Positions 53,385 through 57,301 of a DNA stretch of 64,000 nucleotides are shown piece after piece (position 1 is the first letter of the stretch; each line of letters begins with the position of its first letter). The stretch lies in contig NZ_JALBGV010000004.1 of NCBI RefSeq assembly GCF_023006505.1, positions 62,001-126,000 on the forward strand, read 5' to 3'. Made by a program: the position numbers and the translations under genes. This DNA comes from Neorhizobium sp. SHOUNA12A (GTDB taxonomy: Bacteria; Pseudomonadota; Alphaproteobacteria; Rhizobiales; Rhizobiaceae). The notes beneath the pieces were generated by a model. That model saw nothing but the letters and a program-made list of their open reading frames with translations. It searched no databases and had not been told where the DNA came from.

Positions 53385-53942
53385 TCAGAACCCCATCGAT
53401 TGCTGCGCCGGTTCCGGCGGTGTCAGGCGTACACCCTCGAGCTCCAGCATGCGGGATTTCGAAGTCGAGCCGCCAGGAGCCGAAAAGCCGCCGATCTTGC
53501 CGCCGGCAGCGAGTACACGGTGGCACGGAATGATCAGAGCCACCGGGTTTTTGGCCATTGCCTGGCCGACGTCGCGGGCGGCCTCGGGACCGGCGCCAAG
53601 CTGCTTGGCAATTGCGCCATAGGTCGTCGTATGCCCCCAGCCGATCCGGCGGGCGGCGGCATAGATCTGCTTGAAGAAGTCGTCCTGACCATCGAGATCC
53701 AGCCTGACCTTCGAGAAATCGACTTCTTCGCCGGAAAAATACCGCTTCACGGCGTCGACAGCTTCGAGCACTTCGACCGGAGGCGTGCCCGGCTGGGCCT
53801 CCGGTAACCGGCGGCGCAGCAGCTTTTCGGTCGAATCCGCGCTTTTGGTCGGGAGCTGGAACCGAGTGATGCCGACATCATTCCAGGTGATGCCGCAGAA
53901 GCCGCCGGCAGTTTCAAAAATCAGGTATTGATGCATTGTCAT
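53385..53942 (-). CDS. ogt: Methylated-DNA-protein-cysteine methyltransferase
   Basis: Suicide repair enzyme for O6-alkylguanine in DNA, 185 residues. The active site NPVALIIPCHRVLAAGGKIG carries the acceptor Cys in PCHRV; WGHTTTYGAIAKQLG is the HTH-like DNA-binding segment. It diverges from an AraC-type regulator 137 bp away. Confidence 0.93.
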   Translation of the reverse strand: MTMHQYLIFETAGGFCGITWNDVGITRFQLPTKSADSTEKLLRRRLPEAQPGTPPVEVLEAVDAVKRYFSGEEVDFSKVRLDLDGQDDFFKQIYAAARRIGWGHTTTYGAIAKQLGAGPEAARDVGQAMAKNPVALIIPCHRVLAAGGKIGGFSAPGGSTSKSRMLELEGVRLTPPEPAQQSMGF

Positions 53943-54079
53943 GAGGAAACCTCCGCATTGCGATTGACCTTAAAATCGTGCCTCATGCCCAAGGATTCAA
54001 CCCGTTTCTTGCCTGAAAGGACGAAGTTCTCGCAGAACTGTCGGTTGAAGTTCCCTGGCCGCTCCTTAAATTTTCCGCC

Positions 54080-54868
54080 ATGAGCGGATCGCAAGCATTG
54101 GCTGGAAAAGCGCGCCTGACGGCGGAGAGGCTGCATACGCCTCCCGGCGGCGGACGCTTTGCGATATCGCGCCTGACGCTCGGGCTTTTTCTCGTCGATC
54201 AGGACCGCCACCGGATCGCCATCGGCTCTGACAAACGGCAACATGTGCCTCTGAAAGCCGGCGAAGGCTGGATCCTGCCGGCGGGTGCGGCGGGTATTTG
54301 CGAATATGACGAGGCGCTGTCTTTCCTGAGACTTGAGGTGCCCGAAAACCTGCTCGCCGATGTGGGCTTCGAACGTCATTCGGATTTCAGGCCGGTTATC
54401 GGCACTTTCGACCCGCTGCTGGCGCAGCTTGCACACCAAACAGTGTCGATTGCCGGCCATGCGTCGGCGCTCTACGGTGAAACGATGCAATTGGCGCTCG
54501 CGGCGCACCTCGCCCAGATCCTGGCTCCCGCCCAGCCGAAGCTTGTCGGCATCGACGACAAGCGGCTGCACCGCGCACTTGACTACATCCACGAAAACCT
54601 TTCGACCAACCTGTCACTGGAAGACATGGCAGCCGAAGCGGCGATGAGCCGTTTTCACTTTGCGCGGGCATTTACCAGGGCGCTCGGCAAATCGCCACTT
54701 CAATACGTCATCCGTGAGCGGATGGAGTTGGCAAAACTGTTCCTGAAGACCACGCGGCTGCCGGTCGCCTCCGTTGCGGCCCGGGTCGGTTATGAGGATG
54801 TCTCGCGGTTCGGCCAGCATTTCCGTCGCCACACGGGCAGGACGCCCGCTGCCTTCAGGGCCGATTGA
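54080..54868 (+). CDS. AraC-family transcriptional regulator
   Basis: 262 residues. A cupin-like N-terminal half (LKAGEGWILPAGAAGICEYD) precedes the two HTHs: LSLEDMAAEAAMSRFHFARA and VASVAARVGYEDVSRFGQHF. No Ada-type cysteine domain is present, so despite its place beside ogt it is not an Ada protein. It may regulate ogt or the hydrolase gene that follows after 95 bp. Confidence 0.88.
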   Translation: MSGSQALAGKARLTAERLHTPPGGGRFAISRLTLGLFLVDQDRHRIAIGSDKRQHVPLKAGEGWILPAGAAGICEYDEALSFLRLEVPENLLADVGFERHSDFRPVIGTFDPLLAQLAHQTVSIAGHASALYGETMQLALAAHLAQILAPAQPKLVGIDDKRLHRALDYIHENLSTNLSLEDMAAEAAMSRFHFARAFTRALGKSPLQYVIRERMELAKLFLKTTRLPVASVAARVGYEDVSRFGQHFRRHTGRTPAAFRAD

Positions 54869-54963
54869 AGCAATAATCGCATAACGAACGCCAAGATCTG
54901 CGCCTGTGCCGCTTCTGCGTAACCACCAAATTCCCGTCATTGTAACCAAGATGGGAGAACGCC

Positions 54964-55686
54964 ATGAAAGCCGCTGCTTTTTCAACCTTCTGCGTCGCGA
55001 TGATGACCTCCGCTGCCCTCGCGGAGGATATCCAGACCCGCAGCGTTTCCTTCGAGAACCAGGGCGCGGCGCTCGCCGGCACGCTCTATCTGCCACCGGA
55101 CTACAGAGCCGGCGAGAAACGTCCAGGCGTGGTGGTTAGCGGCGCCTGGACCTCCATCAAGGAGCAGATGGCCGGCCGCTACGCCCGCGAAATGGCGGAC
55201 CGCGGTTTTGCCGCACTCGCCTTCGATCATCGAGGCTGGGGACAGTCGGGCGGTGAAATCCGCTTCAAGGAGGATCCGGCCGAAAAGACCGGCGACATCG
55301 CTGCCGCGGCCGCATTCATGGCGACACTGCCGGAAGTGGATGCGACCAACATCAACGGGCTCGGCATCTGCGCGTCGGCGGGATACATGGCAGCGGCGGC
55401 GACGGACAATGGCAATTTCGCTGCCGTTGCCCTGGTCGCACCATGGCTGCACAACCAGCAGATCGTCGAGCAGGTCTATGGCGGGCAAGAGGGTGTTTCC
55501 AAGCTGATCGCCACGTCACGCGAGGCGGTGATCTCCGAGCGCCGCGGTGAACCAAGGATCATCACCGCCGCCAGCACGACCGACAAGGGCTCGCTCATGT
55601 ATCAGGTCCCCTATTACACGGAGACCGATCGCGGCCTTATCCCGGAATATGACAACCGCTTCAACCTCGCCTCCTGGGAGCCGTAG
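54964..55686 (+). CDS. Alpha/beta hydrolase half of a split fusion gene
   Basis: 240 residues ending at an in-frame TAG (55684). The signal peptide MKAAAFSTFCVAMMTSAALA is followed by an S9/S15-like hydrolase core: FDHRGWGQSGGE (oxyanion region) and GICASAGYMAAAA with Ser138 as nucleophile. The Asp/His part of the triad would lie after the stop. The same frame continues without shift for 232 more codons, so TAG probably replaces TGG (Trp) in SWEP*LTYDSVSLG. As it stands the enzyme is likely inactive. Confidence 0.75.
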   Translation: MKAAAFSTFCVAMMTSAALAEDIQTRSVSFENQGAALAGTLYLPPDYRAGEKRPGVVVSGAWTSIKEQMAGRYAREMADRGFAALAFDHRGWGQSGGEIRFKEDPAEKTGDIAAAAAFMATLPEVDATNINGLGICASAGYMAAAATDNGNFAAVALVAPWLHNQQIVEQVYGGQEGVSKLIATSREAVISERRGEPRIITAASTTDKGSLMYQVPYYTETDRGLIPEYDNRFNLASWEP

Positions 55687-56382
55687 CTGACCTATGATTC
55701 CGTTTCCCTCGGGGCAAAGCTCGACAAGCCGACCTTGATCGTCCATTCGGAGGGAGCTGCCGTGCCGCAGGGTGCGCATGCGTTTTACGCGCTGCTGCCG
55801 GGCGAGAAATCGGAACTCTGGCTCGACGGTATCAGTCAGTTCGACTTCTACGACCGATCGGAGCCGGTGACGATTGCGGCGGACGCCGCGGCAGCGCATT
55901 TCACCCGCGTCAACGCGTCTCGGCAGATCGATCCCGAGGACCGCGCGGAGATCATCGACACGATCACCGATATCGCTGCCGGCGCCGACCGGCATCAATG
56001 GGACCGGGTACGTCGCGCCTTCGCCGACGAGGTGACGCTTGACTATACGAGTCTTTGGGGCGGCAAGCCGATTGCCCAACCGGCCGATGAAGTGATCCGG
56101 CAATGGTCCGGTTTTCTCCCGGGTTTCGACGAGACGCGGCATCTCGTGACCAATCATACGATCACGGGCTTACAAGGCGAGAAGGCGACCGCCGAGGCCG
56201 ATTTCCAGGCGACCCATCGCATCGGAACCGATCTCTGGGTGCTGATGGGCCATTACCGGTACGAACTCGTCAAGGTTAACGCCGCCTGGAAAGTGTCCGC
56301 GCTGACCATGATTGCGACGGACGAGACCGGCGACAGGGCGCTCACTCAGCGCGCTGCCGAACGCGCGCCGAAAACCCGCTAA
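55687..56382 (+). pseudogene. C-terminal half of hydrolase plus NTF2-like domain
   Basis: In the same frame as the upstream half: LTYDSVSLGAKLDKPTLIVH and GISQFDFYDRSEPV complete the hydrolase fold, and about residues 320-460 of the joined protein form a SnoaL/NTF2-like domain (RAEIIDTITDIAAGADRHQW and WVLMGHYRYELVKVNAAWKV). The only usable internal start would be a non-ATG codon near 55735 with no ribosome site. The undamaged gene would be 54964-56382, about 472 residues. Confidence 0.7.
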
Positions 56383-56537
56383 ACTTGAGGAGGACCAGGC
56401 GGCCGCCGACAGCTTTTTCTGGCAGGCTTATCCGCTAAAACCGATGCCGGAGCGGCTTGCAAATTAACCATGATTGCAATTGTTCCGCATTTGTTCTTTA
56501 CTCATCCAAGGAGTCTCGCTAAAAATCATTCAACGGC

Positions 56538-57224
56538 ATGAGGTCGCATTACTATGACGGTAGCAAGATGAGCTTGCGCAAGCACGCTAGCCAGCTCTCG
56601 TTCCCCTTTGGCGAGAGCTGGCAGCTACCCAACCGGCCAGAACGACGGAAGAGCAAGCTGATGTTCGTGCTCAAGCCTTCCGCTCCCCTCGGTCTCATCA
56701 TGCATGGCGATGCCATGATTCACGCGACAAACCAGAATACTCGCGATGCCTATCCCGCCGATCTTCTTCATATGAGCCTGCTTTGCATGGAAGAGTTCGA
56801 TGAGCCGCCCCTGGCGCTTATCGAGGCAACCAGGATGGTCATGGCCGGCATCCACGCAAGGCCTATACCGATCACGCTCGACAGCAGCGGCCTGTTTGGA
56901 GGCAGGCGTCACCTCGCCCTGTATCGCGCCAAGGGCAATCCGATTGTCAACCAGTTCGCGCAGATGCTGCGTCATGCCCTCACCCGACACAACCTACCGA
57001 ATGTCTGGATGGCGGACGCCGCCCCGCATGTGACGCTGATCTATGGCTGCGGCCGAATTGAACCCATGCCTATCGAGCGGAACTACGCCTGGATCGCCGG
57101 GGAATTCATGCTGGTCTACAGCCATTATGGCGAAACCCGGCACGAGGAATTCGGGAGATGGAGTTTCGATCCGAATGCCCCTGCTTATCCGATGCGGCCA
57201 GAACAGCTCCGCATGACGATCTGA
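56538..57224 (+). CDS. 2H phosphoesterase (2'-5' RNA ligase-like)
   Basis: 228 residues. The two H-x-S/T motifs of the superfamily are LLHMSLLCM and APHVTLIYG, about 115 residues apart as expected. The family cleaves or ligates 2'-5' RNA or cyclic phosphates; the physiological substrate is unknown. A start at 56568 (MSLRKHASQ) is possible, as neither ATG has a strong ribosome site. Confidence 0.85.
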   Translation: MRSHYYDGSKMSLRKHASQLSFPFGESWQLPNRPERRKSKLMFVLKPSAPLGLIMHGDAMIHATNQNTRDAYPADLLHMSLLCMEEFDEPPLALIEATRMVMAGIHARPIPITLDSSGLFGGRRHLALYRAKGNPIVNQFAQMLRHALTRHNLPNVWMADAAPHVTLIYGCGRIEPMPIERNYAWIAGEFMLVYSHYGETRHEEFGRWSFDPNAPAYPMRPEQLRMTI

Positions 57225-57301
57225 CGGAAAAGAATTTCGTGAACATGTCGGGCCGACGGGAGCGCGGGCGTCCTGTGGCCGGTCACCCATTTGAGGAGAG
57301 A

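Follow-up and report, generated by a model that had tools for sequence, protein, structure and literature searches.

A probable recent nonsense pseudogene of a hydrolase-SnoaL_4 fusion in an operon lost repeatedly within Neorhizobium

The window analysed here is a stretch of 64,000 nucleotides from Neorhizobium sp. SHOUNA12A (genome G000). It carries on its forward strand a reading frame of 472 codons, counting an interior TAG, that runs from an ATG at 54964 to a TAA at 56380-56382. The TAG at 55684-55686 divides this frame into 240 sense codons before and 231 sense codons after, all in one phase, and the peptide around it reads SWEP-stop-LTYDSV. A preliminary description, made from the sequence alone, had joined two same-phase frames across this codon into a single 472-codon gene, and both the codon count and the local peptide agree with it. 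The part before the stop matches Pfam Hydrolase_4 (9.9e-8) and Peptidase_S15, both above their cut-offs, and the part after it matches SnoaL_4 (PF13577; 1.2e-23, 83.9 bits against a cut-off of 24). The proteins of relatives align through the stop over residues 1-472, at 88% identity in Neorhizobium tomejilense (locus L033, genome G344) and 84% in N. galegae DS1978 (L034, G306), the nearest named relatives at this locus by protein identity, and at 79% in Xaviernesmea oryzae (L035, G311); a further copy is that of N. petrolearium (L036, G314). Since domains are matched on both sides and relatives align through the stop, the continuity of the frame across the TAG is more than chance.

The N-terminus of the fusion gene, judged by eye from its sequence, resembles a signal peptide, and the product is probably exported. 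The gene very likely forms one operon with the AraC-family gene that precedes it and the SnoaL_2 gene that follows it (Table 1). No second intact copy was seen in the same genome, where the hydrolase part has only one weak other match (25% identity, 7e-4) and the NTF2-like part matches only itself; no plasmid match was obtained for positions 53900-57300 of the window.

Table 1. Features of the interrupted operon; positions are those of the window.
Feature	Position	Strand	Evidence or remark
AraC-family regulator, open here	54080..54868	+	Pfam HTH_18 1.2e-22; ends 95 bp before the fusion gene
Fusion gene up to the stop: start resembling a signal peptide, with the YcjY/DLH-type hydrolase through residue 240	54964..55686	+	Pfam; predicted structure of the N. 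tomejilense orthologue
Premature in-frame TAG; Trp (TGG) in the 5 aligned relatives retaining the position	55684..55686	+	
Frame after the stop: final quarter of the hydrolase fold, then the NTF2-like domain	55687..56382	+	Pfam SnoaL_4
SnoaL_4 match	55936..56304	+	Residues 84-206 of the post-stop stretch
Scar of the ~426-bp deletion in the third cistron (SnoaL_2)	56391..56394	+	Start and most of the cistron removed
What is left of the third cistron: 24 terminal codons plus TAA, no start codon	56393..56467	+	

The context of the stop had suggested in the preliminary description a change from TGG to TAG, with the residue in homologues as the place to look, and the relatives uphold this suggestion. 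In a DNA alignment of the locus from seven genomes, the window has TAG where five of the six relatives have TGG (G302, G344, G306, G311 and G314), the codon being deleted in the sixth (G304). Moreover, when 297 genomes of the family were searched with the stop position masked as X, all 7 hydrolase matches of at least 50% identity (L004-L010) were found to have Trp. A wider set of 47 homologues of at least 40% identity has Trp in 46 and Leu in 1 (L049), a count biased toward Trp, as one scan pattern behind that set included this residue; across 40 more distant homologues the position is variable.

A natural end of the hydrolase at the TAG, followed by a separate NTF2 gene, was considered and is ruled out. 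The NTF2-like part is indeed a separate gene in 24 homologues, yet in 24/24 of them the hydrolase ends at query residue 317-322 and not at 240, that is, 77-82 residues past the position of the TAG; homologues ending at the TAG itself, with the NTF2-like part encoded separately, were what the preliminary description had named as speaking against an interrupted gene. A structure predicted for the intact protein of N. tomejilense (mean pLDDT 89.7, 45 sequences in the alignment) places residue 241, the stop position, in helix 235-242 of the hydrolase fold. Truncation at this point would cost, in the predicted model, two strands (257-262 and 282-287), one helix (299-315) and the whole NTF2 domain, and the stop is thus predicted to cut away part of a conserved domain.

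The stop is not the only lesion of this operon. A third cistron of 164-190 codons lies next to the fusion gene in G302, G344, G306, G311 and G314 (164 aa in the first three), and its intact copy in G302 (locus L081) belongs to the SnoaL_2 family (Pfam 3.3e-17). Compared with these relatives, the window lacks ~426 bp after the fusion gene, and the start codon and most of the third cistron are gone. A SnoaL_2 remnant of 24 codons, at 56393-56467, directly follows the fusion gene.

Other lesions are found in related genomes. G302, whose flanks are 96.5% identical to the window, has lost ~1.2 kb from within the AraC gene to within the hydrolase, and its third cistron is open. At that locus (L081, 1498-2436) the deletion has produced an in-frame hybrid of 312 aa, in which the beginning of the AraC gene runs on into the end of the hydrolase and the NTF2 domain. 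G304 (L109), 96.4% identical to G344, retains of the fusion gene only pieces matching window positions 54964-55078 and 55796-55844; its third cistron is 5'-truncated and carries an in-frame TAG of its own, unrelated to that of the window. Altogether, 57 genomes of the genus were searched: an intact copy of at least 77% identity was found in four (G344, G306, G311 and G314) and a broken copy in three (G000, G302 and G304), and for the other 50 no match above ~43% identity appeared among the matches listed. Three different lesion sets thus occur among the seven copies in the genus. The preliminary description had seen the stop lesion correctly, but had missed the broken downstream cistron and the other lesions in the two related genomes.

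Selection on the two parts of the gene appears normal. Against G344, dN/dS is 0.145 before the stop and 0.148 after it, intact pairs giving 0.10-0.20; no relaxation is visible on either side of the stop, and these ratios give no proof of decay. After the stop, the changes on the G000 branch number 5 (synonymous) and 2 (non-synonymous), and those on the own branch of the intact G306 22.5 and 20.5, respectively; these counts do not discriminate because the intact G306 has as many non-synonymous changes. The dN/dS pattern agrees equally well with a stop of recent date, with an error of base calling and with continued use. The normal-looking constraint would therefore mean that the loss, if real, is recent.

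We observed the lesions in the window, the intact copies of relatives and, in related genomes, lesions of other kinds, and our reading of them, to which we give a probability of about 0.8, is that the fusion gene is a recently inactivated gene or pseudogene, represented in intact relatives by a hydrolase plus SnoaL_4 protein of ~472 residues that is probably exported, and that a separate deletion has hit the SnoaL_2 gene. The gene probably became a nonsense pseudogene recently, in an operon that the genus has lost more than once. An error of base calling or assembly, with the fusion gene intact in the living strain, is unlikely, and even then the SnoaL_2 deletion could be real. Such an error is favoured by the single-base difference from the relatives at the stop, by a dN/dS without relaxed constraint before or after it and by the state of the assembly, a 6.56 Mb draft in 217 contigs. 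Yet the surrounding sequence gives no sign of generally poor quality: when 48 frames of G302 were compared over the 64-kb window, overlapping frames being resolved by codon-position signal, the TAG at 55684 was the sole in-frame stop in the window. In the converse comparison, a TGA of G302 falls within 2 of the 51 window frames, once in a 5' stretch that overlaps another frame and once in a frame whose alignment covers only 31%, and the frame changes flagged between the two genomes appear to be mostly small compensating gaps. The second large lesion in the same transcription unit, together with the loss of the gene by other lesions in two related genomes, also makes a real loss likely.

Some readthrough of the TAG to a full-length protein, through a suppressor tRNA or through leaky termination, is highly improbable, even though 231 open codons follow the stop under a constraint like that of intact copies. 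The stop is not conserved, as the 5 aligned relatives retaining the codon lack it, and the partner gene downstream is also broken. TAG moreover serves as the terminator of 6 of the 51 kept frames in the window, and prfA, encoding RF1, is present above the cut-off. None of the 44 tRNA genes has a CUA anticodon, although mutated or divergent tRNAs could fall below the threshold of the search, and no tRNA gene lies within the 64-kb window. We give just as little credit to a split of the gene that would leave a short hydrolase and, translated from an internal start, a SnoaL protein, both of them functional. The 24 homologues with separate genes indicate that the SnoaL domain can work alone, and among the start-like in-frame codons between the stop and 56060 (TTG 55735, GTG 55762, GTG 55867, GTG 56032 and three CTG) the GTG at 55867 has a GGAG a few bases upstream; however, this GGAG is very close to the GTG, no in-frame ATG occurs in that interval and the break lies inside the hydrolase fold, well ahead of the natural boundary. 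Recent pseudogene, sequencing error and readthrough had been left side by side in the preliminary description; the pseudogene fits best, and readthrough is without support. The recent pseudogene resembles ordinary bacterial nonsense pseudogenes, with a sense codon in the orthologues, truncation within a domain and more lesions nearby, and nothing sets it clearly apart from them; the decay seems recent, with constraint still normal.

The intact protein deserves attention in its own right. By sequence profile and by fold, the solved structures nearest to the hydrolase are those of E. coli YcjY (PDB 5xb6, 1.8e-34) and P. aeruginosa PA2218 (PDB 2hdw, 3.7e-30), and the intact N. tomejilense orthologue matches YcjY by structure as well (Foldseek 1e-23; VIA Z 35.0 over 289 residues, 2.5 Å). 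In the alignment, YcjY, PA2218 and the orthologues share the Cys of the nucleophile elbow, whereas before the DLYD motif YcjY and PA2218 have His and the orthologues Gln; the solved chains of the two contain no SnoaL domain in the matched stretch. The elbow Cys, at residue 136, is found in 46/46 near and 39/40 far homologues with a letter there. At residue 292, 45 of the 47 near homologues have Gln, the other 2, which are among the most distant of the set (L082 and L099), having His; in 37 far homologues the count is His 34 and Gln 3. The locus L099 (G348) is a 157-aa frame restricted to the final portion of a related hydrolase (query 217-312, ~40% identity), perhaps another truncated paralogue.

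Judged from the family, Cys136 and residue 292 would be the catalytic positions. Because Gln stands at the position of the canonical catalytic His, we file the hydrolase as a YcjY/dienelactone-hydrolase relative with a putatively changed active site rather than as a standard member. UilS, described as an AHL lactonase of Serratia marcescens, is an alpha/beta hydrolase annotated as dienelactone hydrolase (NF047920; PMC11633161). The hydrolase reaches 53.1 bits (3.7e-14) with this NCBIfam model, far below the 400-bit cut-off of the equivalog, and is thus not placed in the UilS family. For the second domain, the single-domain SnoaL_4/NTF2-like protein Kfla4162 (PDB 4gb5) was matched by Foldseek over 148 columns (1.7 Å, 28% identity); proteins of this type stand alone, whereas the SnoaL_4 domain of the window is fused behind a hydrolase.

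The three parts recur together in different arrangements. Several Rhizobium have separate neighbouring genes for hydrolase, SnoaL_4 and SnoaL_2 (L041, L042, L045 and L063), and L033-L037 have the hydrolase-SnoaL_4 fusion with a separate SnoaL_2. A hydrolase gene accompanied by a SnoaL_4-SnoaL_2 fusion is found in L049, L051, L052, L053, L055, L058 and L059, the fusion lying ~1 kb further in L055. All three are joined into one protein in the order hydrolase-SnoaL_4-SnoaL_2 in two Verrucomicrobia (L048 and L050) and in the order SnoaL_4-SnoaL_2-hydrolase in seven Flavobacteriaceae, two of them checked by Pfam (L064 and L067). No SnoaL_2 was found in the retrieved flanks of L038, L044 and L046, so the three-part set is frequent but not universal. 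The AraC gene also lies upstream of the hydrolase in L033-L043, L045-L047 and L063, at 53-89% identity, and in L044 at 40%. The intact fusion, which the preliminary description had called unusual, appears less so, being intact in five genomes (L033-L037), while elsewhere its parts are joined in a different order.

In a tree of 45 hydrolases, each three-part fusion type forms one well-supported group, and the window's fusion type needs a single origin (77/92 support; 76% of bootstrap trees). This tree omits L004-L006 and L077-L080 (duplicate loci), L081 (broken), L056, L072, L082 and L099, as well as rows without an arrangement label, below 36% identity or shorter than 200 residues. L054 is labelled in it as a hydrolase with a fused SnoaL pair, yet its second domain is no clear SnoaL_2. 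Eleven inner branches are left open, and the position of the Ensifer L038 next to the fused clade is uncertain. A full-text literature search, with subscription papers and preprints outside its scope, yielded nothing on a hydrolase-SnoaL module, judged by titles, and no paper on a Neorhizobium nonsense pseudogene.

Under the proposed explanation, translation would end at the TAG that stands for the Trp codon, giving 240 residues that lack the final two strands and the final helix of the hydrolase as well as the NTF2 domain; a separate deletion has taken away most of the downstream SnoaL_2 gene, its start included. No working product would then be made in the window strain, and the pathway may no longer be under selection in its lineage. 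As for the intact relatives, the hydrolase may attack an ester, lactone or thioester with its Cys nucleophile (Cys136), and the SnoaL domains may act on the small-molecule substrate or product of the hydrolase. It is nearly as likely as not that the Cys-nucleophile, Gln-for-His YcjY-like hydrolase, SnoaL_4 and SnoaL_2 make up an undescribed three-part module that processes one exported or periplasmic small molecule and whose parts are rearranged between genomes, with Neorhizobium repeatedly losing it and the window representing a loss in progress.

The stop itself is ordinary gene decay, and the window appears to show a disused operon falling apart. The three lesion sets in one operon within the genus show that the operon is dispensable there. 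More interesting than the stop is the intact three-part set, with its conserved His-to-Gln change and its several arrangements, and this association of three domains with an altered catalytic position is amenable to biochemical test.
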